Virus record (IMG/VR): IMGVR_UViG_3300042568_001301
Span: 1 to 62,072 of that record
Strand: one strand, 5' to 3'
Origin: a virus
DNA: 62,072 nt
Numbering within the stretch: the first letter of the stretch is position 1; the number at the start of each line of letters is the position of its first letter. The position numbers and the translations under genes are program-made. Below are positions 238 to 55,247 of the stretch, piece by piece. The notes beneath the pieces are model-generated. The model worked only from the letters and a program-made list of their open reading frames with translations, had not been told where the DNA came from and did no database searches.

Positions 238-243
238 GTTGAC
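238..243 (+). promoter_or_regulatory. GTTGAC start-associated signal (ATG 260)
   Basis: Hexamer GTTGAC ending 16 nt before the ATG at 260. It is the first of 20 places in the window where this hexamer precedes an ATG by 15-18 nt. No Shine-Dalgarno is visible in the 16-nt gap. It favours MSNDW as the start over an upstream in-frame codon. The nature of the signal (RNA-level or promoter) is unknown. Confidence 0.6.
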
Positions 244-259
244 CATTTCGCGGAATGGC

Positions 260-502
260 ATGAGCAATGATTGGATCGAGATTTACCGCGACTACACGCC
301 TGTGGAGTTGGATGCGGAGATCACGAAATTGAAGCAGGAAGCCACGCTCTACACCGCCCAAAACATTGGGGACAAGGGATACCAGAAGTCTTTGGAAATG
401 GTGCAGAACCGGCTCCATGCCGCCATCCGTGTGCGGAGCGAGCGGCGGGTGGTCGGCGGGCAAAACCCTTCTTGGGGTGTCCCCGACTTTTCGGGGATGT
501 AG
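260..502 (+). CDS. Small helical phage protein, possible head-joining protein
   Basis: 80-residue protein, predicted largely helical, with an acidic first half (ELDAEITKLKQ) and an Arg-rich end (AAIRVRSERR). I do not recognise it with certainty. Its size, helical composition and place upstream of the portal recall lambda gpW-type head-joining proteins, but no diagnostic residues are visible. The start is chosen at 260 because it is preceded by the GTTGAC signal. The 3' end lies in a 7-bp hairpin (480-497, TCCCCGA/TCGGGGA) without a T-tract. The next gene starts 16 bp later. Confidence 0.6.
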   Translation: MSNDWIEIYRDYTPVELDAEITKLKQEATLYTAQNIGDKGYQKSLEMVQNRLHAAIRVRSERRVVGGQNPSWGVPDFSGM

Positions 503-518
503 GTTGGGGAGGCGTGGC

Positions 519-710
519 ATGAGGTGGTCGGAAAAACATCGCGCGACAGGGCGGGAAGTTTTCTTTCAAGAGCTTCGTAAGAAATTCAAGCGTCCCGCGC
601 CGCCTGCCATCGAAGAGCGCGTGGAGTCGAAGCCAGAGCCAAAAGTCCGACAGATGGGGCTGGCGGAATATATCCAGGCAAACAAGGCGCCGTCCGTGGC
701 GCATTTATAG
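519..710 (+). CDS. Small basic hypothetical protein
   Basis: 63 residues, Lys/Arg-rich in the first half (MRWSEKHRATGREVF...), a Pro/Glu-rich middle and a short C-terminal helix (MGLAEYIQANKA). Not recognised. The ATG at 519 follows GGGGAGGCGTGGC, a plausible Shine-Dalgarno. It ends just before a repeat-rich non-coding segment (711-785), so it probably closes a two-gene unit with the gene at 260. Confidence 0.55.
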   Translation: MRWSEKHRATGREVFFQELRKKFKRPAPPAIEERVESKPEPKVRQMGLAEYIQANKAPSVAHL

Positions 711-711
711 T

Positions 712-749
712 AAGTTTAGCAAGTTTAGCTAAACCGCGATAAACTTGCT
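712..749. promoter_or_regulatory. Direct plus inverted repeat, candidate operator
   Basis: AAGTTTAGC is repeated in tandem (712-720, 721-729). Overlapping it is a perfect 10-bp inverted repeat AGCAAGTTTA (718-727) / TAAACTTGCT (740-749) with a 12-nt loop. No T-tract follows, so a repressor operator fits better than a terminator. It sits in the gap before the exonuclease-ligase operon, 14 bp ahead of a GTTGAC signal. Confidence 0.6.
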
Positions 750-762
750 ATAAGGTCGGCCC

Positions 763-768
763 GTTGAC
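763..768 (+). promoter_or_regulatory. GTTGAC start-associated signal (ATG 786)
   Basis: GTTGAC with a 17-nt gap to ATG 786. Not tied to an upstream stop codon here. The gap contains AAAGGGG, a weak Shine-Dalgarno. Confidence 0.6.
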
Positions 769-2161: not shown

Positions 2162-2167
2162 GTTGAC
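2162..2167 (+). promoter_or_regulatory. GTTGAC start-associated signal (ATG 2184)
   Basis: GTTGAC begins directly after the TGA of the zinc-ribbon gene (2158-2160 plus one base). The gap to ATG 2184 is 16 nt and contains AAGGA close to the start. Confidence 0.6.
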
Positions 2168-2865: not shown

Positions 2866-4590
2866 ATGAACTTTCTGGATCGCGCGGTTTCGTTTCTCAA
2901 TCCCCAAGCAGGCGTTCAGCGGGCGTTTGCGCGGGAGAAGCTCAAGGCGTTTGGCTATGATGCGGCGCATCCTGGCACGGCGCGTGGCGGAAGTGGGGGT
3001 AGAAACAAAAATGCCTCGTCCGAGACTTGGCGGATGCAGCGGGATCGGGTGATCTTGATGTGGGATGCGCGGGATGTGGTGCGGAACTTTGCTCTCCTGC
3101 GTGGCATCGTGGCTCGCATCGTGCAGTATGTGGCGGATACCGTGCAGTATGTGTCGCAGACGGGGGATGAGGAAATCGACTCCCTTTACCAAGACTTCTT
3201 CCATCAATGGTGCGAGCGGGCCGACATCACGGGGCGTCACCGGCTCGGCGATCTGGTGAATATGATGGTGTGGGCGATGATCGTGGATGGCGATCACGGC
3301 TGGCATATTGTCTCGGTGGATGAGGATGGCAAGCAAGTGCCTAAAATTCAACCGATCGAAGCGGATCGAATCGGCGACCCGAACAACCCGATTGCCCCCG
3401 GCGAGGAGAGCAATATCGGCGGGATTTTAGTCGATCCTGTGGGCCGCCCGTTGAGCTACAAAATCTTCAAGCGCGACCGCCGCACGGCGATGTATTCGTT
3501 TGACCGCGAGATTCCTGCCGATCAGTTCATTCATATCTTTGACCCTCAAAGAGTGGATCAGTATCGCGGCGTCACAGCCTTGGCTACGGCGATTGCGCCC
3601 GCCCGCGACCTCTACGAGATTTACCAATTTGAAAAAACCGCCGCGAAGTGGCAAGCGGGCTATGCGGGATTCCTCAAGACGCCCGATCCGACTCGGGGCG
3701 ATGGCGGCGTGAGTGCGTGGAATGGCACGACCATGGGAAGCAAGTCACAGACGAACATGGGCTTAATGGAAGTGGCCCCAGGGAAAATCCAAAAGCTCGC
3801 GGCAGGCGAAGACATCACTTTTGCGCCCGGCACGAATCGTCCAGGCGGGGCGTTCATGGCGCTGGTGCAGGTGTTGGTTCGCGAAATTTCGAGCGGGCTG
3901 AATATGCCCTACGGCTTCCTTTACGACATGACGGCTTTCAGCGGTCACACAGGGCGCATCGAGATCGCTCAGGCCATGCGCGGCATCCGCCGCCTGCAAA
4001 AGCTCGTCGGCGAGCGGGCGTTGAATCCCGTCCGTGATGCGGTGCTGGGCTATGGGATCGGAATTGGCGAGTTGCCGCCGCACCCTCAATGGCGCAATGG
4101 GCGGTGGGGCTTTGGGCGTTCGCTCACAGGGGACTACGGCCACGATACCACGGCAAATTTGCAGATGCTCCAAAGCGGGCTCGTCACCGCCTCGGATTTG
4201 ATTTCCGAGACAGGACAGAGCTTCGAGGAGATAGTGCGCCGCAGCGCCAGCGAGGTGGCCTATATGCAGCGAGTCGCCACCGAGACAGGTGTGCCGATCG
4301 AACTCTTTAATCAACGCATCCCGAATCCGACCCAAGCCCTTGCCGCTATGGCCGAGCCGCCACAGCCGCCGCCGCCTGGCCTCGTTCCGCAGGGGCTGGA
4401 TGTGAAGCCGCTCTTGGAGCTTCTGAAAAATGTGGGCGAAGGAATATTGGATCGCGAAAGCGCGATTATCAATCTGATGAACCTGTATGGCGTGGAGCGC
4501 AATGCGGCGGAGAAGATGATCCCCGATGGGCCGGTGCAGAAGAAGGGATTGACCACGGAGGACACGGAGAACACGGAGGGGAAAAAATGA
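2866..4590 (+). CDS. Portal protein, lambda gpB-like
   Basis: 574-residue portal of the lambda portal family, which forms the dodecameric DNA gate at the head vertex. Recognisable features are the basic N-terminus, the segment ARDVVRNFALLRGIVARIV, the wing region GDHGWHIVSVDEDG with IQPIEADRIGDPNN, and IHIFDPQRVDQYRGVTALATAIA. The helical clip/crown follows (FSGHTGRIEIAQAMRGIRR). Length fits the family. The last residues (GLTTEDTENTE) come from a 9-bp CACGGAG-type repeat at 4551-4579, an apparent insertion of a dispersed repeat at the 3' end. The stop overlaps the next gene (ATGA at 4587). Confidence 0.92.
   Translation: MNFLDRAVSFLNPQAGVQRAFAREKLKAFGYDAAHPGTARGGSGGRNKNASSETWRMQRDRVILMWDARDVVRNFALLRGIVARIVQYVADTVQYVSQTGDEEIDSLYQDFFHQWCERADITGRHRLGDLVNMMVWAMIVDGDHGWHIVSVDEDGKQVPKIQPIEADRIGDPNNPIAPGEESNIGGILVDPVGRPLSYKIFKRDRRTAMYSFDREIPADQFIHIFDPQRVDQYRGVTALATAIAPARDLYEIYQFEKTAAKWQAGYAGFLKTPDPTRGDGGVSAWNGTTMGSKSQTNMGLMEVAPGKIQKLAAGEDITFAPGTNRPGGAFMALVQVLVREISSGLNMPYGFLYDMTAFSGHTGRIEIAQAMRGIRRLQKLVGERALNPVRDAVLGYGIGIGELPPHPQWRNGRWGFGRSLTGDYGHDTTANLQMLQSGLVTASDLISETGQSFEEIVRRSASEVAYMQRVATETGVPIELFNQRIPNPTQALAAMAEPPQPPPPGLVPQGLDVKPLLELLKNVGEGILDRESAIINLMNLYGVERNAAEKMIPDGPVQKKGLTTEDTENTEGKK
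4551..4579. repeat. CACGGAG 9-bp dispersed-type repeat at portal 3' end
   Basis: Three tandem 9-mers (CCACGGAGG, ACACGGAGA, ACACGGAGG) encode TTEDTENTE at the portal C-terminus. Repeats of this kind are known to be scattered in the genomes of several environmental bacteria; I recall them from Verrucomicrobia and Planctomycetes among others. Its presence suggests acquisition from a host chromosome. Confidence 0.7.
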
Positions 4591-5444
4591 AGGAGTTGGC
4601 GCGGGGAGATTTTGCGATTCCGGCGCTTGGGAAGTTGCTGAAGGATCGTTCGTTTCTGGAGCAGTTTGCGACCGGCAAGCGCGGGCCGAAGTTGGGGGAT
4701 TTGAGGGCTTTTCGCTGGGGGCGGGTGGGGAAAAACCCAGTTTTTGCGCCGCAGGTAAGTTGGATTGGAACCGAATCTGTTATTCCCGCGATGAAGCAAA
4801 GCGGATTCGATATTCGCGCTGGCGGGAATCGCCAAGAAGCCCGCAATCACATCGCCAAAATGCTCCGCACGGGGCGTGCGGGCGGGGATGTGTATGAGCA
4901 TATAGGCCGTTTTTTCTCCGTCAAGCTGCGCTTGCGCGAATTGGCGCGTGGTGACTATGCGATACCGGCGTTGGGGAAGATGCTCAAGGATCGTTCGTTT
5001 TTGGAGCAGTTTCTGACAGGCAAGCGCGGGCCGAAGATGGGGGATTTGTCTGTTGGGAAGATCTACCCAGGGGGTATGATTTCTGCGAGAAGACCTCCTA
5101 AAAAATCAGATTTCCAAATTGCAGGATGGACTAAGGGGCAGATGCTGGGCACTGAGCCGGTGGGGCCGCAGAATGCCCGATGGAGAGATGCCCTTATCGA
5201 AGAAAGAATTCGCGGGAGAAAAGAAAACTTCAAAAAAAATAGGAGTTCCCTATCTGATGTTGCCAGGAATGTGCCGTTTCCTCTGGGTCTCACTGCCGAG
5301 GAGGCCGCTTGGGCTCAATCTGCTCGAACTGCTGCTCGAAATAATGCTGCCAAGATGTTGCGCAAGGGGCGGGCTGGCGGCGATGTGTATGAGGACATAG
5401 ACCGCAAGTTTTTCGCTGTTGACCGCACGCCCTTCGGGGAATGA
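4587..5444 (+). CDS. LREL-motif protein with internal duplication
   Basis: 285 residues, not a known family. It is built from two copies of one unit. Copy 1 (1-110) starts MKELARGDFAIPALGK, continues DRSFLEQF and KRGPK, and ends with AKMLRTGRAGGDVYE. Copy 2 (113-285) starts KLRLRELARGDYAIPALGK, repeats the same blocks and ends AKMLRKGRAGGDVYE. Copy 2 has an extra 60-70 residues in the middle. The ELARGDY block recurs in the protein at 19385. The motif places it in the LREL family that runs from here to 19960. The start overlaps the portal stop (ATGA), so it is probably made in step with the portal. Confidence 0.75.
   Translation: MKELARGDFAIPALGKLLKDRSFLEQFATGKRGPKLGDLRAFRWGRVGKNPVFAPQVSWIGTESVIPAMKQSGFDIRAGGNRQEARNHIAKMLRTGRAGGDVYEHIGRFFSVKLRLRELARGDYAIPALGKMLKDRSFLEQFLTGKRGPKMGDLSVGKIYPGGMISARRPPKKSDFQIAGWTKGQMLGTEPVGPQNARWRDALIEERIRGRKENFKKNRSSLSDVARNVPFPLGLTAEEAAWAQSARTAARNNAAKMLRKGRAGGDVYEDIDRKFFAVDRTPFGE
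5418..5423 (+). promoter_or_regulatory. GTTGAC start-associated signal (ATG 5441)
   Basis: Lies inside the 3' coding part of the preceding gene; 17-nt gap to ATG 5441. It is not a stop codon in this frame (it reads as part of AVDRT), so the hexamer is kept independently of termination. Confidence 0.6.
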
Positions 5445-6033: not shown

Positions 6034-9000
6034 ATGAGCGAGTTCATCCGCAAGGCCATCCAGAAGAGTCTCCTTTTAAAAAAGAAACCGCACTTGGCTC
6101 CCAAGGCCACGCCGGTTACTGATCCTGCGAATTGGGAGGATGCGAAGTCCAAATTGCGGGAAATCCTTCGCGCTAATGGCGGTAAGCCAGGGCCGTGGCT
6201 AGATGACAATGGGCAGATGCGGTTGTTGACGCGGCGGTGGGTGGGGATGAAGCGTTTGAAAGAATTTCGATATGATGCGCCTACTCCTCAAGAGGAGCGC
6301 CGAGGGTTGTTGCGGACGGGGCTTCTGGCTGGGGGCATTGCTGCTGCTGGAGGGCTGGCGGGCTTGGGGTTGTATAAGTCTGGGTTGTCTTCTTATGCTC
6401 GGCGCGCCGATCGTTTGGAAAAGCTTGTAAAGAAAATCCATGGGCAAAGGACGAATCTTGGCCAGAAAGCCAGGGATGCAGCGGCATCCCGCGGAGCGGC
6501 CAAGCAATCGGCTCAAGACGCTTCTATTTTCTCTCAAGGGCTTCGCGAGAAGCGTCAAGCAGCGGCAGCGGCTGTTGCGGCCAAGGCCGCGCAGGCGAGC
6601 GAGGCCGCCAATGTCGCGGCAGCAAAGAAATTTAATAAAACAGCGACTGCTTACTACGATCCCGCAAGTGCCGCGAATAAGCGGGTGGCTCGTGAGGCGT
6701 CTGTCGCCGCAAAGAAAAAGGCGCCAGTTTCCGCGCCCTCAGTTCCTAAAACAGAAATTCCCGAGGAAGTTTTTTCGGCGGTTCCAGAGGCTCCGATCAA
6801 GAAAGCTGCTGCGGCTCCGACTGAAAAATTTTCCAGTTGGGCTCAAGCTAAGGGAGCATTTAATAAAGGGAAAATCACTAAGGAGCAACTTGACAGCATG
6901 AAGTTTTCCTCGGCAGAAGTTCCTAAAGAATTTGATTTTCAGAATGACGAGGGGGGCATTCCCCTCACGGGGCGCGTGGCTCGAGATCGGTTCGTGAAGA
7001 AAATCCGTGATGAGGACTTGGATCGCCGCGATGCGAATATCCTGCGCGCTGGCGGCGCAGGGGCGTTGGCGGGGTTGATGTTCCGTGGCGGCCTTTCCCG
7101 AGGCAAGCGTGCATTGATCGGTGCTGGAGCGGGAGGATTGGGGGTAATTGGCATCCGCGCCCTTACGAATAACGATCGAGACATTTACGGCGAGCGCAAT
7201 CGCGGGAGCAAGCGCGCCGAGTTGATTCCTGCCGTAGGCGGACTCGGTGCGGCGGCATGGCTTGGGATGCGGCGCTTTAAAGGATTATCATCAAAGCTGC
7301 GCGGAACAAAATTTTTCGAGAAGCGGGAGCGCCGTGAGAAACGGGAGTTGAATCCCTATGTGGGGGCGGCTCTCTCGGGTGGCGTAAGCGGGGCGAGCCT
7401 CGGCGCGCTGTCATGGCTCAAGCGTGGCACCTCCGTGGCTTCGGCTGGAGCGACTGCTGCGAAGTTGGGTGCACTCAGCGCCGGTATCGTCGGCGGCGGG
7501 GCCTTGATCGGTAGCCGCATCGTGGGTGATCCTCGCAAGGAAGAGGGAGCGCCGTTTACGAAGCGCGCGGCCTTGGGCGGGGCTATAAGCGGAGCCTTGG
7601 TAGGTGGCGCGGGTGGGCTTTTGCTTCGCAATACGAAGTTTATGAAGGATGCCGCCAAAACTTGGCGTCCGGCAAAGTGGATGACAGATGCTCCGGCTCT
7701 CGGGGCTGGCGCTCTTGGGGCTCTGGGCGGCGCGGTGATCGGTGGGGCGCAGGGGGCCGACGAGGGGCAGCAGGTTGATTCGATCCGCAACATCCGAAAG
7801 GACATAAAGCAAAAGAATTTTTCTCTTCGTGAGTTTCGCGCGTTGCCAGCGGTTGCCGTGAAGCAAGTTTGGAAGACTGATCCTGCGCTGCGGGCGGATT
7901 TTGCAAAACGGGTTGTCGCTAAAGTGCGGGCGGCTGTGGCTGCGAATAACAAGCAATACGGGGTAAAGGAGTTCCAAGTCTCTCCGCTCAATGTGGAGTC
8001 GATGGCCAAGACGAAAGAGCGTCGCGCCAGCGAGCGGGCTAATTTTTTGAAAGGCATTGGCGTAGCGGCAGCTGTGGGACTTGCAGGAGTTGGCGGGTAT
8101 AGGGTGGGCCGTGTGATCAGTAAGGTGGATATCAATGCTGCCAAACGGGCGGCAGAAGCTGCTTCTGAGGAAGCGGGATGGCAAAAGCGTAGTGCTGAAA
8201 GATGGCGTAAAAGTTGGCAAGATGAGGCGTCGAGTGCTTCTCGTGCGCGGCAGGAGGCGTCGAGTGCTTCTCGTGCGCGGCAGGAGGCCCGTGCGAGTTC
8301 GTGGAGAGAAGAGAATCGCAAATGGGAAGAAGATTTTCGGAATAAGTGGGGTAATCCCCAAGGTTCCAGTGGTGCGAGTTCATCTGGACATGACAGTGAT
8401 TACGCCAAGCGAAGCGCGGACGCTGCCAAGAAGTGGCGTCAAGAGCAGTCCAGATCCTCGGCTTCCTCCTCCAGCTATCGTGCTGAAAGCGGAACAGGAT
8501 CGAAGGATTACACCCCCCCGCCTAGATCCAGGGCGAAGGGAACCGGCGAAGATCGCAACCCTCATGTAGGCACTGCTAAGGAGGATGCTTGGGAGAAATG
8601 GCGCGCGATGGATCGCATGGCTAAGGAATCTAAAAATGAAGGCGAGCGCGAGACTGCTGCTCGCATGAGAGATATGTGGAAAAAGAAACATAATTTGGCA
8701 AGAAAGCTGCGGGGGTTGAAGTTGTTTGGACGCGATGATCAGCCTCGTTATCGAGAAAGCAAGGTGTGGGCTGATCCGGTCATGGGTTGGATCCGAGGGG
8801 ATGACTTGGTGGATAAGGATGGCAATAAATGGAGTCCTACCTCGCCGCAGCTTGTGAATGCGATGCACAATAAAGCGCGCGGCATTCGCGTGAATGTGCA
8901 GCGCGGGGCGGGGTTGGCGGGCGATACTTCGGCTGTATTGCAGGGTAAGGAGCGCGAGCGCGATGCCAGTGGCCGTGTTAAAAAACGCGAGTGGGAGAAG

Positions 9001-9705
9001 GCATGGTTTCGCAACGCGCTGACGACGGCTGGGCTGACTGCGACAGGGCTGGCTGGCGCGGCAGCGTGGCGCTATGGCCGCATGAATCCTGGCACGGGCT
9101 TTGGAAAATTTGTGGCAAATACGGAGCGAGGTGTCCGCAAGACCAAGGATGATATCAAGTCGGGCTTGGGTCGCATTATGGGTGCCGCTGATGAGGTTAC
9201 TGGGCCTGCTAAATTTATAAGAAAATTGTTGTCTGCCAAGTTGAAGTTGCGCGAATTTGATCTCTTTGCCAGCGCGGCAGGGTGGGATACACGCGACCCA
9301 CGCGGGAGGTCGGTTCGCGTGTATGCTCCAGGCAGTCGCCCGCGTAATAGGCGTGAGAAATACTGGCATGAAAAGACTGAGAACCAACGCAAGCTTATGA
9401 TCGCAGCTGGCGTCGGAGCTGCGGCTATCGGCGGGCTTGGCGGCGTGGCGGCTTATCGGCTCGCCAAGGGGAAATCGCTTGTGCCGAGTTTTATGCTCAA
9501 GAAGCCGCAGCCACAGGTTCAGGCTCCTCTGCCTGCTGCGGCTCGTTGGGAAAAAAATTCCAAAGGCAAATTCGTTCCAAAACCGAGAGGGGTAGAGGGG
9601 AAGGTTAATCCTCATTTCAAGGGAGATGCTCCATTGACTCCAGAAGAAATCGCTCGTCAGCAAAGAAAATGGAGAGACATGGCAAATCCTAATAACGCCG
9701 CCTAA
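6034..9705 (+). CDS. Large LREL-motif protein with Gly-rich hydrophobic segments (putative ejected internal head protein)
   Basis: 1223 residues, no family recognised. Three LREL-type motifs are visible: MKRLKEFRYDA at 72-82, FSLREFR at 596-602 and SAKLKLREF at 1067-1075. Several Gly/Ala-rich hydrophobic stretches of 20-30 residues follow (about 91-115, 335-380, 440-490, 510-580, 670-690, 1119-1145), resembling glycine-zipper membrane segments. Between them are Ala-rich coiled-coil regions (about 165-200) and a Ser/Arg/Glu-rich low-complexity zone (about 725-840) with a perfect 10-residue duplication. Size, position after the portal and hydrophobic repeats fit a capsid-internal protein that is ejected and crosses membranes. 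An in-frame second start at 6247 (M72) has its own GTTGAC signal. Confidence 0.75.
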   Translation: MSEFIRKAIQKSLLLKKKPHLAPKATPVTDPANWEDAKSKLREILRANGGKPGPWLDDNGQMRLLTRRWVGMKRLKEFRYDAPTPQEERRGLLRTGLLAGGIAAAGGLAGLGLYKSGLSSYARRADRLEKLVKKIHGQRTNLGQKARDAAASRGAAKQSAQDASIFSQGLREKRQAAAAAVAAKAAQASEAANVAAAKKFNKTATAYYDPASAANKRVAREASVAAKKKAPVSAPSVPKTEIPEEVFSAVPEAPIKKAAAAPTEKFSSWAQAKGAFNKGKITKEQLDSMKFSSAEVPKEFDFQNDEGGIPLTGRVARDRFVKKIRDEDLDRRDANILRAGGAGALAGLMFRGGLSRGKRALIGAGAGGLGVIGIRALTNNDRDIYGERNRGSKRAELIPAVGGLGAAAWLGMRRFKGLSSKLRGTKFFEKRERREKRELNPYVGAALSGGVSGASLGALSWLKRGTSVASAGATAAKLGALSAGIVGGGALIGSRIVGDPRKEEGAPFTKRAALGGAISGALVGGAGGLLLRNTKFMKDAAKTWRPAKWMTDAPALGAGALGALGGAVIGGAQGADEGQQVDSIRNIRKDIKQKNFSLREFRALPAVAVKQVWKTDPALRADFAKRVVAKVRAAVAANNKQYGVKEFQVSPLNVESMAKTKERRASERANFLKGIGVAAAVGLAGVGGYRVGRVISKVDINAAKRAAEAASEEAGWQKRSAERWRKSWQDEASSASRARQEASSASRARQEARASSWREENRKWEEDFRNKWGNPQGSSGASSSGHDSDYAKRSADAAKKWRQEQSRSSASSSSYRAESGTGSKDYTPPPRSRAKGTGEDRNPHVGTAKEDAWEKWRAMDRMAKESKNEGERETAARMRDMWKKKHNLARKLRGLKLFGRDDQPRYRESKVWADPVMGWIRGDDLVDKDGNKWSPTSPQLVNAMHNKARGIRVNVQRGAGLAGDTSAVLQGKERERDASGRVKKREWEKAWFRNALTTAGLTATGLAGAAAWRYGRMNPGTGFGKFVANTERGVRKTKDDIKSGLGRIMGAADEVTGPAKFIRKLLSAKLKLREFDLFASAAGWDTRDPRGRSVRVYAPGSRPRNRREKYWHEKTENQRKLMIAAGVGAAAIGGLGGVAAYRLAKGKSLVPSFMLKKPQPQVQAPLPAAARWEKNSKGKFVPKPRGVEGKVNPHFKGDAPLTPEEIARQQRKWRDMANPNNAA
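6225..6249 (+). promoter_or_regulatory. GTTGAC signal with nested in-frame start at 6247
   Basis: GTTGAC at 6225-6230, a 16-nt G-rich gap (ends GGGTGGGG), then ATG 6247, in frame with the gene starting at 6034. The resulting shorter protein would begin MKRLKEFRYDA, putting the LREL-type motif at its N-terminus as in the short family members. This may be the true start or an alternative one. Confidence 0.6.
8224..8283. repeat. 30-bp perfect tandem repeat in coding sequence
   Basis: Two identical 30-bp units (8224-8253, 8254-8283) encode EASSASRARQ twice in the low-complexity zone of the large LREL-motif protein. In-frame, so it changes length without breaking the gene. Confidence 0.9.
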
Positions 9706-9711
9706 AAATTT

Positions 9712-12294
9712 ATGAACGATCCAAGACCTCGTAATAACCAAGGCCAATTTGCCTCTCAAAGCATCGATGGCATTGATGCCAATACGACTTCCACGGCTTA
9801 TAATCCCCAAGTCATCGAGCAACGCAAACTCTCGCTGATCGAAAAAATCCGACGGATGCGCGGCGTTCGCAATGGCGTGGAGGAGGCGGGGCCTCGACAG
9901 CAGCAACTTTCCGCGAAGCTTCGGCTACGCGAGTTGGCGCAGCGGCAGTCTCAAGAAGATCCCGCTTTAGGCCGCGCCGGAAGTCTGCTTCTTGCGGGTG
10001 GGGTTGGAGCCGTGGGGAATCTGGCTGCGGTGACGGTAGCGAAGGAAGTAATGGACGCAAAAAAGCAGCAGGGGTTGGATTTTTTTGGGCAGCCTCGCGG
10101 CTCGGAGATGAAGCCGATGATGGCATGGGGCAGGACGAAAGAAGAAGCCAATGAGAAACTTCGCAAGGCTACAGAAGAGGTGAATGGGCGTAACCGCAAG
10201 GTGCAGCGCGAGTATCTGCGCTCCAATCCTGATGCCCGCCGTAGTGAGGTGCTTGATAGATTTGCTCGCAGGAAAGGATATGATATCGCTGTTGGTGATC
10301 CCGGCATCGCTCCGAAGGGGGCTATTCCTGGTAAGTCGAGAGGTATATTCCAAAGAGGGCATGCTGACCCTGATTTTATAAGGGCGCATGAGGCGGGGCA
10401 TGTGGCTCAAAATCTCGGCGGCAAAAATCTTCCCTTTAACAAAAGTATCCGGCAGGCCTTTATGTTTGCGCCTTTGGGGGCGACTTCCGCTCTTGTGAAC
10501 AAGGACAAGTCGAATGACAAGGTTGCGACGGGAATCGCTGCTGCGGGAACTCTGGCTGCGTTGCCGACATTGCATAACGAGGTGGATGCTTCTGTGCGTG
10601 GCTACAAGATCATGCGCAAGCTCGGCTCAACGCGCCTGCGTGCAGCGGGTGCATTTGTAGGGTTGCCCACCTATGCCGCTATCGCCGCCATGCCAGCATT
10701 GGGCTGGGGTGCGCGAAAGCTCCGGCAGGCTCGCTCGGAGGAAAAAGATGGCAAGCAGCTCTCTGCGAAGCTTCGCCTGCGGGAGTTGGCGCGCGTGGCG
10801 GCTCAACCCTATCCCGAAGAGGAGCGAAAGGGTGGCATCGGCAAGATCGGTGCATTGGGGCTGGGCCTTGGGCTGGGTATCGGTGGCGCGATAGGTGGCG
10901 CACGGTATCTGCGGCCTATTCTCAAGCGTGGGGTCGGTCGTGCATCGGATAGCTTGGCAAGCGTTGCTGCATCGGCAGGGAATGCGATCCCCAAGATGAC
11001 CAGCGAGGTCGAAAAAACGGCAAGGTCGGCTCAGGCTACAGCCAAGGCAGCACAGACTGCTGTGATTCAAGCTTCACGAAACATTGACGACGCCACGCTG
11101 GTTCCCCGGACGATGGGAAAAATTGCCAGATCGGAGGTTTTCCCGAGGGCTTGGAATATCATGAACCCGCGTGCGCGTTGGAAGGAAATCAAGAGCGGAT
11201 TTGATGCTGGGGTGGAAGAGTCTCGCTTGCGTGGTAAATACATAGATCGCGTGCGGCGGCGTGCTGCGGAGCGAGGGGTGTCGGGATTAGATCAAAAAAT
11301 GCTAAGGCAGGCGGCAATAGAAAATGTGCCTACTGGCACAGTGCCGATCTTCCAAGCCTGGCGGCCCAGTTGGGCGCGCGTCACGCCAGAGCGCGTGAAG
11401 TTGGCTGGGCCAAAGGCTGGGGCGAAACTTTACTCTGCCAAGCTGCGATTGCGTGAACTCTCTTTTGCGAGTGATGCGCTGAGGGAATTCGCCGAAGAGA
11501 AACGCCCGCTGACCACTAAACAAAAGCTGGGGATAGCGGCTGGGCTGGGCACGGCTGCTGTGGGGGCGACGCTCATGCCAGCGGCGGGCAAGATGTTTCG
11601 TATCGCCACGCGCGATATGGCGCACGATACGCTGACGGGCTGGGCGAAGAAGCGCGGCTTGCGTTCATTTATCAAGCCGCCCAAAAGCGATCCGAATCGG
11701 GATGGGCGGTTTGTTGCCGATTACATCGACGGCGCGCAATCAATCTTGAACAAGGGAGTGCAGGGTAAGATCGCGGGTAAGATTCTCCAGCACGCCAAGG
11801 CGAACCCGAAGGGTAAGGTGGCTAAAGTAGTGGGTGGCGAATTGGGTGATTATGGAGTGAGCCACTATGCGAGATTCCGCTCAGGGCCTCGGGAAGCCAT
11901 GAAGCATTGGGACAGTGAAGTGGGTGATCTCAAAAACCACATCGGCAAGCAACAAGGTATTTTGGATGCAAATAACAATTTTGTGCCAGGAGCAAACCCG
12001 GCAAAAGTTAAAAAAACCCAAGCGCGGCGTGATGAGATGGCCGCTGGGCGCAAAGCTGTGGATGACGAGATCAATGAACAGCTTTGGCATCATGGCAAAA
12101 GCGAGTCCGAGGCGTTGCGGCATGTGGCGGAAAACACAAAAAATCCTGCTGCCTTGCAATATTTTAAGAACTTAGCGCACCATAACAGGGGGGCTGCTGC
12201 GAAGTATGCCAAGATCTCTTTGGTGGCACCTGGGATGGTGGTTGGTGGTGGAGCCACTGCGGGGCTTTCAATGCGGAGAAAGGAAAATCAATGA
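9712..12294 (+). CDS. LREL-motif polyprotein-like protein with embedded HEAGH metallopeptidase domain
   Basis: 860 residues. Three near-identical internal motifs SAKLRLREL start at 67, 351 and 575 and divide the protein into a leader and three segments of about 220-285 residues. Each is followed by a Gly/Ala hydrophobic stretch (LLLAGGVGAVGNLAAV; GLGLGLGIGGAIGG; LGIAAGLGTAAVGATL). Segment 1 contains a zinc-peptidase signature: HEAGH at 226-230 and a third-ligand region E290 in NEVDASVRGY, the pattern of YugP-type neutral zinc metallopeptidases. The repeated motif at segment starts suggests a polyprotein with processing sites or fused cassettes. The stop overlaps the next start (ATGA at 12291). 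Peptidase activity is inferred from motifs only. Confidence 0.78.
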   Translation: MNDPRPRNNQGQFASQSIDGIDANTTSTAYNPQVIEQRKLSLIEKIRRMRGVRNGVEEAGPRQQQLSAKLRLRELAQRQSQEDPALGRAGSLLLAGGVGAVGNLAAVTVAKEVMDAKKQQGLDFFGQPRGSEMKPMMAWGRTKEEANEKLRKATEEVNGRNRKVQREYLRSNPDARRSEVLDRFARRKGYDIAVGDPGIAPKGAIPGKSRGIFQRGHADPDFIRAHEAGHVAQNLGGKNLPFNKSIRQAFMFAPLGATSALVNKDKSNDKVATGIAAAGTLAALPTLHNEVDASVRGYKIMRKLGSTRLRAAGAFVGLPTYAAIAAMPALGWGARKLRQARSEEKDGKQLSAKLRLRELARVAAQPYPEEERKGGIGKIGALGLGLGLGIGGAIGGARYLRPILKRGVGRASDSLASVAASAGNAIPKMTSEVEKTARSAQATAKAAQTAVIQASRNIDDATLVPRTMGKIARSEVFPRAWNIMNPRARWKEIKSGFDAGVEESRLRGKYIDRVRRRAAERGVSGLDQKMLRQAAIENVPTGTVPIFQAWRPSWARVTPERVKLAGPKAGAKLYSAKLRLRELSFASDALREFAEEKRPLTTKQKLGIAAGLGTAAVGATLMPAAGKMFRIATRDMAHDTLTGWAKKRGLRSFIKPPKSDPNRDGRFVADYIDGAQSILNKGVQGKIAGKILQHAKANPKGKVAKVVGGELGDYGVSHYARFRSGPREAMKHWDSEVGDLKNHIGKQQGILDANNNFVPGANPAKVKKTQARRDEMAAGRKAVDDEINEQLWHHGKSESEALRHVAENTKNPAALQYFKNLAHHNRGAAAKYAKISLVAPGMVVGGGATAGLSMRRKENQ

Positions 12295-15155: not shown

Positions 15156-15161
15156 GTTGAC
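15156..15161 (+). promoter_or_regulatory. GTTGAC start-associated signal for the prohead protease (ATG 15179)
   Basis: 17-nt gap to ATG 15179. The gap holds a small inverted repeat GCCCC/GGGGC that includes an AAAGGGG Shine-Dalgarno-like run, so ribosome access may be structured. Confidence 0.65.
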
Positions 15162-17925: not shown

Positions 17926-17999
17926 TGCAGGATAGAGAAACGGTATCTCACGAGGCCCATAACCTTGGGTTCCGGGTTCAACTCCCGGTCCTGCTACCA
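17926..17999 (+). tRNA. tRNA with CAT anticodon (Met, or Ile2)
   Basis: A 74-nt cloverleaf with encoded CCA. Acceptor 17926-17932 pairs with 17989-17995 except a T-T first pair. The D arm is GAGA/TCTC, the anticodon stem CGAGG/CCTTG, and the loop CCCATAA with CAT at 17958-17960. The variable loop is 4 nt and the T arm CCGGG-TTCAACT-CCCGG. Position 33 is C instead of the near-universal T. The mismatched first pair recalls initiator tRNAs, but three consecutive G-C pairs in the anticodon stem are absent. A lysidine-modified Ile2 tRNA is also possible. It sits between the capsid terminator and an LREL-motif gene. Confidence 0.85.
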
Positions 18000-19960: not shown

Positions 19961-20098
19961 CAAAATTTTAGTAGGCATGGGCATGGCAGGCAAGCCGTGA
20001 GTGCCATGGAGGAGGTTTTTTCAAGGATGCGTCCTTGAAATTCATCCTAAGCGCCGCAAACCGCAGCGGCTCCTCCGAACCACGGGGCGGAATGAAAG
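19961..20098. other. Non-coding gap with hairpin between LREL cluster and SSB
   Basis: No convincing gene. It contains a perfect hairpin TTTCAAGGA-TGCG-TCCTTGAAA at 20019-20040. The T-run lies 5' of the hairpin on the plus strand, so it is not a plus-strand terminator; an RNA-structure or protein-binding role is open. Confidence 0.5.
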
Positions 20099-20124
20099 CG
20101 CCATCTCTCAAGGATGGCGTTTTT
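20099..20124 (+). terminator. Intrinsic terminator upstream of SSB
   Basis: CGCCATC (20099-20105), 7-nt loop, GATGGCG (20113-20119), then TTTTT (20120-20124). The next base starts GTTGAC, leaving only 21 nt between the T-tract and the SSB start codon. Confidence 0.75.
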
Positions 20125-20130
20125 GTTGAC
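20125..20130 (+). promoter_or_regulatory. GTTGAC start-associated signal for SSB (ATG 20146)
   Basis: 15-nt gap to ATG 20146, immediately after a terminator T-tract. If the terminator works, the SSB message must come from readthrough or from initiation within about 20 nt of the start codon. Confidence 0.65.
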
Positions 20131-20551: not shown

Positions 20552-20806
20552 ATGCCAAGGATCATTTACACGATTTATAACACGAAAGACCTGACTCAAA
20601 AGAAGGTCTTGAATGCCATGGGGTATGAGCAGGCGTTGGAGGAGGCTTTACTGGGGTTGGGATTCACTCACTCCGACATCACGAGGCTTGGAACTGGCGT
20701 GGGCGATCTGGAGCTGGCGTTGAGCGATCTGGGCTGGGTGGTCGGCAAGGATGTGGATGCGCCGTATCAAGACGAGCACATGATGTCGATGCAGTCGCGG
20801 GGTTGA
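20552..20806 (+). CDS. Small hypothetical protein in head-tail region
   Basis: 84 residues, alpha/beta (MPRIIYTIYNTKDLTQKKVLNAMGYEQ), acidic towards the end. Not recognised. It starts 1 nt after the SSB stop and its TGA is embedded in the GTTGAC of the following gene. Its position between capsid and tail genes suggests a connector or assembly role, without direct support. Confidence 0.6.
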   Translation: MPRIIYTIYNTKDLTQKKVLNAMGYEQALEEALLGLGFTHSDITRLGTGVGDLELALSDLGWVVGKDVDAPYQDEHMMSMQSRG

Positions 20807-20807
20807 C
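20802..20807 (+). promoter_or_regulatory. GTTGAC start-associated signal (ATG 20824)
   Basis: 16-nt gap to ATG 20824; its TGA is the upstream gene's stop. It selects MGFEDS as the start rather than an earlier TTG codon. Confidence 0.6.
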
Positions 20808-22328: not shown

Positions 22329-22354
22329 GGCCGCCTTCGGGCGGCCTTTTTTTT
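22329..22354 (+). terminator. Strong intrinsic terminator after tail-tube genes
   Basis: GGCCGCC (22329-22335), TTCG tetraloop, GGCGGCC (22340-22346), then eight T residues (22347-22354). GTTGAC follows without a gap. Confidence 0.92.
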
Positions 22355-36980: not shown

Positions 36981-36986
36981 GTTGAC
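36981..36986 (+). promoter_or_regulatory. GTTGAC start-associated signal (ATG 37002)
   Basis: 15-nt gap with AAGGA; ATG 37002. It lies 2 nt after the upstream TAG, so the hexamer is present although it does not supply the stop. Confidence 0.65.
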
Positions 36987-40216: not shown

Positions 40217-40222
40217 GTTGAC
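40217..40222 (+). promoter_or_regulatory. GTTGAC start-associated signal (ATG 40241)
   Basis: 18-nt gap to ATG 40241. It lies 1 nt after the upstream TGA. Confidence 0.65.
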
Positions 40223-45870: not shown

Positions 45871-47408
45871 AGGTTTATACTTATTATAGTGAAATTAAGT
45901 TTTCCGCTCAATCAGACTTAATTTCCGTTTGGAAGCAAAGCTGGGAGAAGCGGGGGTTCGAGCCGGTTGTGCTGAGTGTCGCGGATGCCAAGCGACACCC
46001 TTATTATAAATGCTTCCAAGAAGTTGTTCGTAGCCAGAGTGAGCAAATGGGCTTTGCGCTGAGTGCTTACGGTGAGGCGTGTTGGATGCGTTGGCTGGCT
46101 TATGCTTCGCTGGGGGAGAGTGGGCTATTTATTGTCTGTGATTATGATGTGATGAATCGGAACTTCCCGGTTCCCGAGAAATTACCGGAGGGCTTGGTTT
46201 TTTGGGATGGGGCGTGCCCGAGCGTGGCCTCAGGGAATTCCGAAGATTTTTTGAGGTTTTGTAAATCAGTAGAATTCATGGATGTAGAGTGTTTTTTGGA
46301 AGCTAATAAAAAACCCATATCTCACTTCCACGATCAAGAGTTTTTATGTTGCCCTCAGTGCGCAGGGTTGAAACATTCACGGATGCGGCCCGCAGAAGTT
46401 GTTTCGTTATATTCCGAGAAAGTGGATGCGCCATTGGTGCATGTGTCTCACAGTTCTATTCCTGGCTTTAACGAGGCGAAGCGTTTAGCAGCTGCTTGCG
46501 AGGTGCTGCAATATGAGGGGGCGGCATGGGGTGGATGTTTGCAGGGCCTCGCGCGGACGGTGATTCGGATGGATCTCCTGGCGAGGCGTCCTGTGCCTAT
46601 TTTTTTACATATCCCGCGATGTGGTGGGACATTTGTCTTGGCGACAATGATGGCCTCTTCAGTTTTTTTAAAACAGAGTGGAGGCGGCGGGGTTATCAAG
46701 CAAATTTTAGTGAATGAGGAGGGGGTTATCTTTAGGGTTATTGCGTCTTGCGAGGATATTGGCTCTGATGCTGATGATAGGCATAAACTCACGGTGGATC
46801 TTAGTGGTTTTTTTGAGATTCTCCCGAAGTTGGAATTTGTATTTTCGGTCGTTATCGAACCAGCGGGGGTTTCTCGATTCGCTGGGGGGCTTTTTCACGA
46901 AATTTGCGATCGCATTCAAAGAAAGCCAATGTTTTTTACCTGCCTCCGCGATCCTTTTGAGCGGGAGGCCTCGAAGTTCGCTTATTTGATAACTAAATTG
47001 AGCGAAGATTCATTCTGCATTGAAGGCGAAGAAGAGCGCGTGGCTAATGCATTAACTGGCATGGAGTTTGAAGAGTATATTCAATCGGACAGGCTTTCGG
47101 ATAGTTGGCTGATCCGGACATTATTGCCGCAGGCGGCGCATATTTGCGAAAATGAAATTGATGAGGCTTGCCAGCTTCTTGCGGATTTTAGGATTTGCGG
47201 GCTCTCGGGCCTTTCGGAGCATTTGGGCAGAGTTTTAAAGGATTGCTATGGCGAGATCGCTGTGCCGCTGGGTTTTGAGATCAACAGCAACAGCTCGGGA
47301 GGGGTCGCGTTTGATAATATCTCTGAAAAAGCTAGGGCGGCGTTTCTTGAAAAAACGAGGCCGGACTACGAGTTGTATTGGCGATTGATAGCTCGGGCTG
47401 AGTGTTGA
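45867..47408 (+). CDS. Glycosyltransferase-sulfotransferase fusion
   Basis: 513 residues counted from GTG 45867 (GTGA overlap; ATG 45855 is the alternative). N-terminal half: glycosyltransferase-like, with opening VKVYTYYSEIKF, an FIVCDYDVM motif (D92, D94) and a Cys-rich loop (FLCCPQCAG). C-terminal half: sulfotransferase-like, with a PAPS-binding loop FLHIPRCGGTF (H248-T255) and a 3'-phosphate motif RDPFERE (R361-R366), the HIPKxGGT...RDPxxR pattern of the family. The fusion would let one protein transfer a sugar and sulphate, for example on fibre or host glycans. It lies between fibre genes, and its stop is in a GTTGAC. Confidence 0.78.
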   Translation: MKVYTYYSEIKFSAQSDLISVWKQSWEKRGFEPVVLSVADAKRHPYYKCFQEVVRSQSEQMGFALSAYGEACWMRWLAYASLGESGLFIVCDYDVMNRNFPVPEKLPEGLVFWDGACPSVASGNSEDFLRFCKSVEFMDVECFLEANKKPISHFHDQEFLCCPQCAGLKHSRMRPAEVVSLYSEKVDAPLVHVSHSSIPGFNEAKRLAAACEVLQYEGAAWGGCLQGLARTVIRMDLLARRPVPIFLHIPRCGGTFVLATMMASSVFLKQSGGGGVIKQILVNEEGVIFRVIASCEDIGSDADDRHKLTVDLSGFFEILPKLEFVFSVVIEPAGVSRFAGGLFHEICDRIQRKPMFFTCLRDPFEREASKFAYLITKLSEDSFCIEGEEERVANALTGMEFEEYIQSDRLSDSWLIRTLLPQAAHICENEIDEACQLLADFRICGLSGLSEHLGRVLKDCYGEIAVPLGFEINSNSSGGVAFDNISEKARAAFLEKTRPDYELYWRLIARAEC

Positions 47409-47409
47409 C
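47404..47409 (+). promoter_or_regulatory. GTTGAC start-associated signal (ATG 47428)
   Basis: 18-nt gap containing GGGAGGTG, a good Shine-Dalgarno; ATG 47428. The start MRLYVDLD aligns with the other two paralogues downstream. Confidence 0.65.
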
Positions 47410-48700: not shown

Positions 48701-48706
48701 GTTGAC
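48701..48706 (+). promoter_or_regulatory. GTTGAC start-associated signal (ATG 48724)
   Basis: 17-nt gap to ATG 48724; starts 1 nt after the upstream TAA. It selects MRIAINTE rather than an in-frame ATG 9 nt upstream. Confidence 0.65.
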
Positions 48707-52989: not shown

Positions 52990-52997
52990 TTTAGCTT

Positions 52998-53297
52998 ATG
53001 TTAAACTTTCCAGATTCACCAACAAACGGGTATATTTATCCACCAGAAACCGAAGCAGCGATTGAAGGTCGTCGCTGGAAATGGGACGCCGCTGGCGGCG
53101 TGTGGCTAAACTACTCGGCGTCGCAGCCCTACACACTGCAAATCTACAATGTAACAAACCTTCAGTCAGAGCTTGATAGCAAGATAGAGAAGCAGTCTGC
53201 CGATACAACTCCTGTAAATGCCATTCGGTGTCTTACGCAAGCAGAATACGACGGCACAACGAAAGACCCGAACACAATTTATTTCATAAAACAATAA
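52998..53297 (+). CDS. Small fibre module protein
   Basis: 99 residues: MLNFPDSPTNGYIYPP, then WKWDAAGGVW, a coiled-coil-like NLQSELDSKIEKQ, and the C-terminal AEYDGTTKDPNTIYFIKQ. This combines the N-terminal WxFxG-type module and the DPNTxYxI C-terminus of neighbours in one small protein, likely a fibre segment or adaptor for the following protein. Confidence 0.65.
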   Translation: MLNFPDSPTNGYIYPPETEAAIEGRRWKWDAAGGVWLNYSASQPYTLQIYNVTNLQSELDSKIEKQSADTTPVNAIRCLTQAEYDGTTKDPNTIYFIKQ

Positions 53298-53298
53298 C

Positions 53299-55041
53299 AT
53301 GCCTACTGTTGTAAAAGCCTATTTAGGAACAACTCCGCTTTTTACGGGAGACTCTGTATGGGTTCGTCCCTCCGATTGGCTCGCCCTGCCCTCTGCACAA
53401 GCTAATTCTGTAAAAATACTACATGCTGTTTTTGACCAAACTGAAAACTATGTAGTGATTAAAATGGTGACTTCCGACAGTTCTGCCTACATCATAAATT
53501 GGGGGGACGGGAATACCACAACAGCGTTAAGCAATACAAATATCACATACAATTACAGCTACAGTTCTTCTGGATTGGATGGCACTCTCTCTGCTCGCGG
53601 ATACAAGCAAGCCATAATTACCATAACACCGGTAGGGTCGGCAACATTTACACTTTGCGATTTATCTCAAAAGATTACCTCCCCGTCAGGTATGCAAATG
53701 TATGCTACAGGCTTGCTTGATGTTAATGTAAATCTTCCGAATCTTATAGCTGGGCAAAGGTTGCTTATCGGTTCGTCAACAGTTCGCCATTCTTACCTTG
53801 AAAGGGTTTATATCGCTTCGTGGGGGCTTATCAACAATATCACCGCTTTGTTCCAGCATTGTCCCGCGCTTCAATCTCTGAATGAGACAGAGTGGAACAT
53901 GTCGAACATAACCACCGTTTCAAGCCTGTTTTTTGAGTGCAGCGGTATAAAGGTGATCGACGGGTCTAATTGGGACACGGCAAAAATCACCACTTTTACG
54001 GACATGTTTCGTGCTTGTCAAACTATCCAAAAGGTGAGTTGTGCAAACTGGGTCACATCGACAACCACAGGCATCGGAAATATGTTTTTCGGTTGCACGG
54101 CCCTTACGGATATAGATGTCGGGAACTGGAATACTGCTAACTGCACAACTTTTGCTTATCTTTTTTCGGCATGCCGCTCCTTGACCAGTATAAATGTTCG
54201 TAATTGGAACACCGCAAAAGTCACCACGATCAACAACATGTTTGAGAACTGCAATGCCGTGCAAGAAGTGGATATTTCTCTTTGGAGCCTGCCGTTATGC
54301 ACTAATGTGCAGGCGGCTTTTATAAACTGCCATACTTTGAGAAAGTTGGGGCCGTGCAACTTTAATGCCGTAACAAATCTTACAGCAACATTCAACAACT
54401 GTCGCTCTCTCACTTCATGCACTATATCGTGGCTGAGGGCTACCACAGACTTTACGAGTTGCCGATTGCCTAAAGCTGCGCTGGATACTGTTTTTTCAAA
54501 TCTAACTGGCGGTGCAGCATCGAGAACTATAACCATTACTGGAAACTACGGCGCGGTTGCTGCGGTCAGCAAAACTACTTGCGGAACCACAGCAGGATCA
54601 AAAACTGTAACGCAGTCAAACACTTCGAGCTTGCAAGTTGGGATGCAAGTTTTGGGGACGGGGGTGACCACTGCTGTAGCGGTTACTTTTCAAGACGCGG
54701 GGGACACCGTTACACGGACAGCCCACGGACTAGACAATGGAACCATTGTTTCATTTTCAACTATAACTAGCACGACAGGGATAGCAATATACGCCCAGTA
54801 TTATGTAATCAACGCCACTGCCGACACATTTCAGTTGTCCGCAACTTCTGGCGGGGCAGCTATCGCCCTAACTACGAATGGTAGCGGGAATATGCTTTAC
54901 CCTGCCTACATTACCGCAATTACCACGAACTCATCTTTCCAGATGAGTGCTCCAGCGTCGGCTACTGGAAGTGTGACGCTCACGGCTAGAATTTTGAGCA
55001 CTTTCCCTGCGACATCAAAAGGATGGACTGTAACAGGATAA
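53299..55041 (+). CDS. BspA-type leucine-rich-repeat fibre tip
   Basis: 580 residues. N-terminal anchor (KAYLGTTPLFTGDSVWVRP), then a PKD-like strand (INWGDGNTTTALS). About eight BspA/DUF285-type LRR repeats follow (about 174-375), each like NWNTAKVTTINNMFENCNAVQEV. The C-terminal region (about 400-580) is beta-rich (SKTVTQSNTSSLQVGMQVLGTG). BspA-type LRRs in bacteria and protists mediate binding to host matrix; here a phage receptor-binding role is inferred. The anchor matches the RCC1 protein at 52123. Confidence 0.78.
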   Translation: MPTVVKAYLGTTPLFTGDSVWVRPSDWLALPSAQANSVKILHAVFDQTENYVVIKMVTSDSSAYIINWGDGNTTTALSNTNITYNYSYSSSGLDGTLSARGYKQAIITITPVGSATFTLCDLSQKITSPSGMQMYATGLLDVNVNLPNLIAGQRLLIGSSTVRHSYLERVYIASWGLINNITALFQHCPALQSLNETEWNMSNITTVSSLFFECSGIKVIDGSNWDTAKITTFTDMFRACQTIQKVSCANWVTSTTTGIGNMFFGCTALTDIDVGNWNTANCTTFAYLFSACRSLTSINVRNWNTAKVTTINNMFENCNAVQEVDISLWSLPLCTNVQAAFINCHTLRKLGPCNFNAVTNLTATFNNCRSLTSCTISWLRATTDFTSCRLPKAALDTVFSNLTGGAASRTITITGNYGAVAAVSKTTCGTTAGSKTVTQSNTSSLQVGMQVLGTGVTTAVAVTFQDAGDTVTRTAHGLDNGTIVSFSTITSTTGIAIYAQYYVINATADTFQLSATSGGAAIALTTNGSGNMLYPAYITAITTNSSFQMSAPASATGSVTLTARILSTFPATSKGWTVTG

Positions 55042-55045
55042 TTTT

Positions 55046-55246
55046 ATGGATGATACATCAGGATTTTACAAATTGGATGAGGGGCAACTTTTATACGCGC
55101 CTAACTTCGTAATCAGCGCGCTTTATGAGTTAAGCAAAGAAACAAAAAACGAATACAGCTACCCCGTAGATGGGTGGAGTTGGTTTGACGGCGAGGAAGA
55201 AGCGAGAGTCGCTCTACAGTTGCGGGCTCCATTTAGTGTGGGTTGA
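55046..55246 (+). CDS. Small tail-associated protein
   Basis: 66 residues: MDDTSGFYKLDEGQLLYAPNFV, Tyr/Pro-rich centre, GWSWFDGEEEARVALQL. This short pattern (GFY...LLYAPNFV...P.DGW.WF.eEE) is a common accessory encoded just after fibre genes in several phages; function not assigned. Starts 4 nt after the LRR gene; its stop is in the following GTTGAC. Confidence 0.7.
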   Translation: MDDTSGFYKLDEGQLLYAPNFVISALYELSKETKNEYSYPVDGWSWFDGEEEARVALQLRAPFSVG

Positions 55247-55247
55247 C
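55242..55247 (+). promoter_or_regulatory. GTTGAC signal leading to a 10-codon mini-ORF
   Basis: 17 nt after it, ATG 55265 opens a 10-codon ORF (MKYYDTTGGY) that ends in the frame of the real gene start at 55275, 27 nt away. The spacing matches the rule only for the mini-ORF, which may act as a leader. Confidence 0.45.

Follow-up and report, generated by a model that had tools for sequence, protein, structure and literature searches.

GTTGAC at a set distance before structural-strand start codons: a putative late promoter element in an uncultured phage and its relatives

The hexamer GTTGAC lies 15–18 nt upstream of many ATG start codons in IMG/VR record IMGVR_UViG_3300042568_001301, a virus record that includes genes for a lambda-type portal (PF05136), a major head protein (phrog_1005) and an integrase. 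The DNA analysed here, positions 1–62,072 of that record, is referred to as the window, and the gap is the number of nucleotides between GTTGAC and ATG. In the phage collection searched, the capsid protein of the window has no relative and its first 24 kb no close DNA match. Relatives of the capsid protein are encoded by 12 IMG/VR contigs, with 3 more found by profile search. One bacterial record also encodes a relative, on a 69-kb contig in a Verrucomicrobiaceae metagenome-assembled genome (MAG), here called the MAG phage. Because of this contig the likely host phylum is Verrucomicrobiota, with an error in the MAG binning possible.

Genes were called with our own simple codon-usage caller and the called starts are therefore approximate. 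Two of the related contigs, G001 (96.7 kb) and G011, are near copies of the window. They were left out of the sequence profile at near sites, the terminator and junction counts, the ortholog retention and the 14-contig sum, and were included in the count over 529 plus-strand genes; in these counts G001 was covered from 54 kb onward. As G003, G014 and G016 are also close to other contigs, sites across the relatives are not independent.

GTTGAC sites of the window

The window contains 23 copies of GTTGAC on the plus strand and one on the minus strand. An ATG follows 20 of the 23 at a gap of 15 (four sites), 16 (six), 17 (seven) or 18 (three), and the minus-strand copy has none; this is the count per strand by start-codon distance that the sequence-only reading had proposed. 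That reading had listed 20 positions, all of which are exact, and had stated that 18 of the ATGs are gene or nested gene starts, which was confirmed. The 18 products are 51–1412 aa long and the other two ATGs start open reading frames (ORFs) of 3 and 10 aa. The three exceptions that it placed inside genes, at about 36545, 48795 and 52820, do exist, at 36546, 48795 and 52825. The sites are listed below with the two intrinsic-terminator-like hairpins that abut them. Orthologs are reciprocal best orthologs of <90 % identity in 13 relatives, and a hexamer was counted as near the start if it lay anywhere from -66 to +100 of the called start.

238–243 (+), GTTGAC, gap 16, ATG 260; first gene of the presumed late block, 80 aa; hexamer near start in 8/8 orthologs
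763–768 (+), GTTGAC, gap 17, ATG 786; DnaQ-like exonuclease, 186 aa; absent at 4/4 orthologs
2162–2167 (+), GTTGAC, gap 16, ATG 2184; 51 aa
2843–2848 (+), GTTGAC, gap 17, ATG 2866; portal protein, 574 aa; near start in 5/10 orthologs
5418–5423 (+), GTTGAC, gap 17, ATG 5441; 87 aa; absent at 5/5 orthologs
6225–6230 (+), GTTGAC, gap 16, ATG 6247; 1152-aa product within ORF 6034–9705; similar internal sites in relatives
15156–15161 (+), GTTGAC, gap 17, ATG 15179; 436 aa, putative protease by position, the major head protein gene being the second gene after it; near start in 12/12 orthologs
15686–15691 (+), GTTGAC inside ORF 15179–16489, gap 18, nested in-frame ATG 15710; 259-aa product
20098–20124 (+), terminator-like hairpin and T-run, abutting the hexamer at 20125
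20125–20130 (+), GTTGAC, gap 15, ATG 20146; 134 aa, resembling a single-strand DNA-binding protein (SSB) as judged by eye; near start in 5/5 orthologs
20802–20807 (+), GTTGAC, gap 16, ATG 20824; 108 aa; near start in 9/11 orthologs, down to 30 % identity
21566–21571 (+), GTTGAC, gap 17, ATG 21589 of a 3-aa ORF; gene from 21615 (gap 43) behind AGGAG
22329–22354 (+), terminator-like hairpin and T-run, abutting the hexamer at 22355
22355–22360 (+), GTTGAC, gap 16, ATG 22377; 95 aa; absent at the single ortholog
23469–23474 (+), GTTGAC, gap 15, ATG 23490; 1412 aa, tape-measure-like by length and position; near start in 2/2 orthologs
29970–29975 (+), GTTGAC, gap 15, ATG 29991; 232 aa; absent at 7/7 orthologs
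32219–32224 (+), GTTGAC, gap 16, ATG 32241; 1017 aa; near start in 5/5 orthologs
36981–36986 (+), GTTGAC, gap 15, ATG 37002; 713 aa; near start in 5/7 orthologs
40217–40222 (+), GTTGAC, gap 18, ATG 40241; 132 aa; near start in 2/2 orthologs
47404–47409 (+), GTTGAC, gap 18, ATG 47428; 423 aa; absent at the single ortholog
48701–48706 (+), GTTGAC, gap 17, ATG 48724; 154 aa; near start in 1/2 orthologs
55242–55247 (+), GTTGAC, gap 17, ATG 55265 of a 10-aa ORF; 105-aa ORF from 55275

From base composition, 0.93 occurrences of GTTGAC with an ATG at a gap of 15–18 are expected in the window. Among 200 dinucleotide shuffles the mean was 0.67 and none exceeded 3. The comparison with shuffled controls by which the sequence-only reading could have fallen, 20 observed against at most 3, thus came out in its favour. 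Among all hexamers, GTTGAC ranks first with ln p of -44; the runner-up has -8.9 for the plus strand, and the best minus-strand hexamer -10.1. Its one-mismatch variants have only 0–3 hits each (0–1.6 expected); the word is therefore exact, unlike a normal -35 box.

Conservation and distribution

A hexamer was found near the start of 54 of 80 orthologs of the hexamer-bearing window genes, compared to 20 of 149 orthologs of other genes (p 1e-16). At the capsid gene it was found in 0/12 orthologs. The nested start at 15710 allows the hexamer to be followed within coding sequence, as site 15686 is read as Val-Asp in the outer frame. The codons are GTT GAC in all 16 contigs that cover this gene, and the joint frequency of this codon pair is 7.1 %. 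The codon that follows varies, encoding Thr in 14 of the 16 contigs with three codons used, and the gap from the hexamer to the inner ATG is 18, 24 or 27. The nested 259-aa product may be a scaffold; the lambda scaffold gene Nu3 lies inside C, as the 15710 gene nests in-frame within 15179–16489.

The pattern, GTTGAC with an ATG at a gap of 15–18, is present in all 15 related IMG/VR contigs, 4–21 times in each of the first 12 and 7–11 times in each of the other three. In the 14-contig sum, from which the MAG phage was also left out, an ATG lies at 15–18 behind 156 of 225 GTTGAC on the structural strand and behind 3 of 38 on the other strand. Using our own gene calls for 13 contigs, the element precedes 107 of 529 genes on the plus strand and none of the 204 on the minus strand; these contigs also have matches at starts that are nested or were misassigned, and three minus-strand matches with no called gene after them. 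The element is thus restricted to the structural strand, and within that block it also precedes the exonuclease and SSB-like genes. The sequence-only reading had described it as spread across the genome. All 20 of its sites are real, but this wording is too wide, as 20 of the 21 matches in the 96.7-kb near copy G001 are found in the first 55.3 kb. The remaining match is before a lone plus-strand ORF (L041:3740-4528) flanked by minus-strand ORFs.

IMG/VR was also scanned for GTTGAC-N10-13-GGGTATGGC. At least 86 new loci were read, 16 were taken to full records and 4 to full analysis. GTTGAC is the top hexamer in G056 (40 % GC, capsid protein 38 % identical), where 10 of 16 copies have the ATG (p 1e-7), and in G044 (portal 25 % identical), where 8 of 16 do (p 1e-5), though these p-values are flattering because the records were chosen for holding such sites. 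In G045 and G046 the signal is weak (3/8 and 4/20).

Chromosomes of the likely host phylum do not have a comparable density of the pattern. In 145 genomes there are about 9–50 matches per Mb, counting both strands, versus about 320 per Mb in the window. In many of these genomes the pattern is 2- to 4-fold over the reversed control, and nearly 10-fold in G119 (39 versus 4). This was provisionally not taken as a signal because the reversed control has another base order. In the 6.5-Mb Verrucomicrobiaceae MAG the pattern was found 98 times (reversed control, 77); in 28 genomes, matches to a stricter pattern were about equal to controls; and in 400 kb of the MAG only 1 of 27 upstream occurrences of TTGAC was at 15–18 nt.

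Sequence context and neighbourhood of the hexamer

Sites with a near ATG have T around +11 and G at +12 to +14 past the hexamer, with GGG(T/C) before the ATG. At sites with a far ATG, position +11 is T in 41 % and positions +12 to +16 are purines in 70–89 %; many of these 27 sites are orthologs and several are probably not gene starts. A is found at -11 and -10 in 7–10 % of hexamer starts compared to 33–37 % of other plus-strand starts, which is as expected if this A-poor stretch is outside the mRNA. Shine-Dalgarno (SD)-like words are present in 15 % of 102 hexamer starts and 34 % of 528 other plus-strand starts, and in 13 % of 206 minus-strand starts and 11 % of 256 host starts.

Two features of the gap were considered and rejected. 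GG lies within -5 to -2 of 59 % of hexamer starts and 14 % of other plus-strand starts. This G-run was not accepted as an SD sequence: its distance from the ATG is too short, and several sites whose ATG is far off still have the run at +11 to +15 from the hexamer. It is also not essential, as it is mostly missing in the AT-rich relative G056. Many gaps resemble C-rich then G-rich stems, which raised the suspicion of a hairpin between hexamer and ATG. The mean folding energy was -1.87 kcal/mol, with -1.37 kcal/mol for shuffled gaps and -1.77 kcal/mol for gaps whose halves were exchanged among sites. As the real gaps scarcely surpass the latter, we claim no paired structure.

Terminator-like hairpins lie just upstream of 9 of 162 hexamer sites and 6 of 561 other plus-strand starts (p 0.0017). 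The T-run touches the hexamer at six sites, namely 20125 and 22355 in the window and four others that seem to be one orthologous position. Where the first late gene lies beside a divergent minus-strand block, the hexamer is present in 7/7 contigs. This count covers the cases that open the long late block; 11 of the 18 cases listed as a first plus-strand gene after minus-strand genes lack the hexamer and were set aside, being taken as spurious calls, lone genes in the minus block or a relative that uses another word.

The start codon can move relative to the hexamer. The gene starting at 21615 and its orthologs in 8 of 9 relatives have an upstream hexamer, with gaps to the called start of 16, 19, 19, 22, 32, 32, 33, 43 (window) and 44; the ortholog in G005 has no hexamer at its called start. 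A second ATG at 17 in G010, the relative with a gap of 44, is possibly the true start. AGGAG-, AAGGA- or GGAGG-like words are present in the window and in the cases with gaps of 32 and 33.

In five relatives (G009, G004, G007, G005 and G006, at L029, L044, L022, L055 and L058, respectively) GTTGAC precedes about 140 nearly invariant nucleotides that contain no ORF starting with ATG. An exact 25-base core of this stretch is found, within IMG/VR, in those five contigs only. Three of the four complete copies end near a T-run, and the DNA stays invariant well beyond the stop codon of an 18-codon ORF. No Rfam match above gathering scores was found for the stretch. It is a candidate phage small RNA; a small peptide is also possible because short GTG/TTG ORFs are present.

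The MAG phage differs from the others. On the strand concerned, an ATG is found at 15–18 behind just 3 of 27 GTTGAC, and all five copies of TTTGACA have a gene start 14–17 nt past TTGAC. It seems that this phage uses TTTGACA instead.

A further sequence, GTTGACAAGTTAC, is common to G001 (67036), G004 (68293) and G008 (47), where it precedes a plus-strand gene whose ATG is far off. This gene is terminase-small-like (match made for G001), and GTTGACAAGTTAC may be a different signal.

A putative late promoter: alternatives, recogniser and known systems

GTTGAC is probably the main recognition element of a phage-specific promoter for late genes in this family of tailed phages, acting as DNA and giving near-leaderless mRNAs. 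If the hexamer is recognised in this way, transcription would start downstream of it, between about +10 and the start codon, and most late mRNAs would have a leader of a few nucleotides at most, or none. The tight gap of 15–18 would then reflect a fixed distance from hexamer to start site, with the start codon placed as near as possible, and where the ATG is further off a leader would be made, sometimes with an SD sequence. The promoter role, the late timing, the start site and the near-leaderless translation are all inferred from the sequence. The sequence-only reading had offered three candidates without choosing. Of these, the evidence now favours a promoter with a short leader, read by an unusual sigma or phage factor; ribosome recruitment is disfavoured and RNA processing is unlikely.

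It is highly improbable that GTTGAC serves as the -35 box of an ordinary host sigma-70 promoter. The -35 consensus of sigma-70 does have TTGAC at its core, and one relative has TTTGACA. However, at the spacer of 16–18 at least four matches to TATAAT were found at only 8 of 124 sites, compared to 5–16 at other offsets, and the maximum of 32 sites falls where the TATG of the start itself lies. The transcription start would also fall inside the gene, and host-phylum chromosomes lack a comparable density. The statement of the sequence-only reading that this is not an ordinary promoter therefore holds, there being no -10 box at the required spacing. For -35-like words upstream there is a slight excess (6/124; shuffles, mean 2.0 and maximum 5). 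The sigma-54 promoter TGGC-N8-TGC was found at 0/124 sites, and a looser form, GG-N10-GC near the ATG, at 10/124, a count made without a control. A DNA signal unrelated to expression, such as one for replication, packaging or modification, that is at gene starts by chance would account for the strand asymmetry and the exactness of the word, but not for its tie to gene starts, the nested start included, and we regard it as just as improbable as the host promoter.

Two alternatives that place the signal in RNA deserve more weight, though both are unlikely. If GUUGAC in a leader, spaced regularly from the start codon, recruited the ribosome or some factor of the phage, the tight gap would be explained, as would the tiny ORFs opened by an ATG at the two window sites without a gene there, and the GTG that opens 18–51 codons at 13–14 nt in the 140-nt stretch. 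Such a signal should not be absent from 204 minus-strand genes, and it sits poorly with terminators that abut the hexamer, with the one gene that keeps its hexamer while the called start is 16 to 44 nt away, and with the 140-nt stretch, which has no ATG gene and is conserved far past the 18-codon ORF. An RNA-processing site, at which an endonuclease would cut a long late transcript slightly downstream of GUUGAC to leave short 5' ends near the AUG and the 5' end of the 140-nt stretch, is marginally less likely again. Processing would also set 5' ends at a fixed distance, allow the ATG to move and precede a non-coding RNA, and the phage does encode an RNA ligase-like protein. It requires transcripts that enter the hexamer, however, and terminator-like hairpins abut the hexamer at some sites, and in 7/7 contigs the hexamer precedes the first late gene next to a divergent block.

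Several observations weigh against the promoter interpretation. Most plus-strand genes do not have the element, so that their transcripts have to come from further upstream, and no hexamer was found near any ortholog of the genes at sites 763 (4 orthologs), 5418 (5), 29970 (7), 22355 (1) and 47404 (1). The scarcity of SD-like words is not special to hexamer starts (15 % versus 13 % for minus-strand genes). The excess of terminators is small, with four of the nine sites apparently one orthologous position. The 140-nt stretch is a single locus shared by close relatives. Its fold does not surpass that of shuffled sequence (z -0.74), and it includes GTG/TTG ORFs of up to 18–53 codons, one with its GTG 13–14 nt past the hexamer. 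TTTGACA was chosen after inspection of the sequence, and the shorter TTTGAC reaches p = 0.019. No RNA polymerase was detected among 61 proteins scanned with Pfam, most of them encoded in the minus block or beyond the structural genes. Sigma region 2 (PF04542) was found in 0/15 contigs (control, 10/14), a result limited by contigs that may be incomplete and by the chance that a very divergent sigma could escape.

Other searches for a recogniser gave little more. RpoB (PF00562) was found in 0/15 contigs and in 14/14 control genomes, noting that the contigs may be incomplete and that phage subunits diverge, and the T7-type polymerase family PF00940 in 0/15 contigs and also 0/14 control genomes. 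Matches in the Pfam scans were to an SNF2-type helicase, AAA, ParB, beta clamp, ThiF, integrases, a primase zinc ribbon, terminase and a LuxR-type domain, with one weak match to Sigma70_r4_2 (E 0.003). The LuxR-like protein, found in three contigs only, is similar to phrog_3282, a phage 'sigma factor' family (1.7e-7). A candidate recogniser is a protein conserved in the phage family:

59457–60179 (+), protein with a helix-turn-helix-like stretch, recognised by eye

This protein is encoded in nine contigs, one of them a near copy, and profile searches also detect it in G056 (6e-10) and, with a weak match, in the MAG phage (3e-4). No named relative or family match was found, and the best matches among PDB sequences are unconvincing (E 0.03–0.8). 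The predicted structure is of low confidence (mean pLDDT 58) and was not used for a fold search. L046:1647-2780 and L030:16469-17569 are also members of this protein family, of which G004 and G009 have a partial duplication. In the minus block of G001 and relatives (L041, L047) there are ThiF-like and E2-like genes of the kind found in PRTRC systems, and some contigs have a beta clamp and ParB.

GTTGAC resembles the compact late promoters of other phages in kind, and its sequence, its distance and the missing polymerase set it apart. The T4 late element is TATAAATA at -10. T4 late transcription involves gp55, gp33 and the sliding clamp acting at a compact element (PMC2988020). The late element is compact in both cases, and 1 of 25 early proteins scanned here is beta-clamp-like; however, no gp55- or gp33-like protein turned up in our protein scans. 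According to PMC7598289, phiKZ late promoters, used by the nvRNAP, consist of T-3 A T G+1, with TATG overlapping the start site as the sole element and no -35/-10 pair. Both elements are very short, near the 5' end, without a -35/-10 pair and late-specific, a timing presumed for GTTGAC (PMC7598289). Here, by contrast, the hexamer is 15–18 nt before the ATG, and no RpoB-like subunit was found in 15 contigs. The AR9 late promoters, given as AACA-N6-TA/G in the same paper, are alike in having a short upstream element at a set distance before late genes and differ in sequence, distance and polymerase (PMC7598289). For phiEco32 and 7-11, PMC4331800 gives tAATGTAtA, recognised by a phage sigma and likened to an extended -10 element. 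Like GTTGAC, it is a single short element of structural genes found by comparing phage intergenic regions (PMC4331800). The difference lies in the phage sigma, sigma region 2 not having been found in the 15 contigs here. Promoters of bacterial leaderless mRNAs, for example those of mycobacteria, have an element tightly spaced from the start codon, with the -10 box near the ATG. The tight spacing is shared, whereas our hexamer is further upstream and no -10 box is seen.

It is possible, though on balance we would not assume it, that these sites represent a new promoter class, in which an invariant GTTGAC, with no -35/-10 pair, is read by an unrecognised phage factor, perhaps the protein of 59457–60179, and RNA starts about 10–18 nt downstream to give leaderless or near-leaderless mRNAs for many virion genes. 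If so, this class would have persisted across portals about 25 % identical and GC contents of 40 to 58 %, and the same promoter would also drive a nested gene inside another gene and a non-coding RNA. Titles in the literature yielded nothing relevant on GTTGAC as a phage promoter, though the motif may still be published, and no match for a promoter motif in Verrucomicrobiota phages. For uncultured phages whose hosts are probably Verrucomicrobiota, the hexamer opens late gene control to study from sequence. It also helps to place start codons and to recognise nested genes in their genomes, and it can serve as a test in the search for the missing polymerase or specificity factor. With start sites as proposed, virion genes would be translated with almost no leader, which is unusual for highly expressed genes.

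Two further features of the window were noted. A tRNA-Met (CAT) gene is located at 17926–17999, and a tRNA match was also found in five relatives searched. A peptide like SAKLRLREL is repeated within and between the predicted proteins of 4587–5444, 6034–9705 and 9712–12294, and is perhaps a cleavage or targeting signal.

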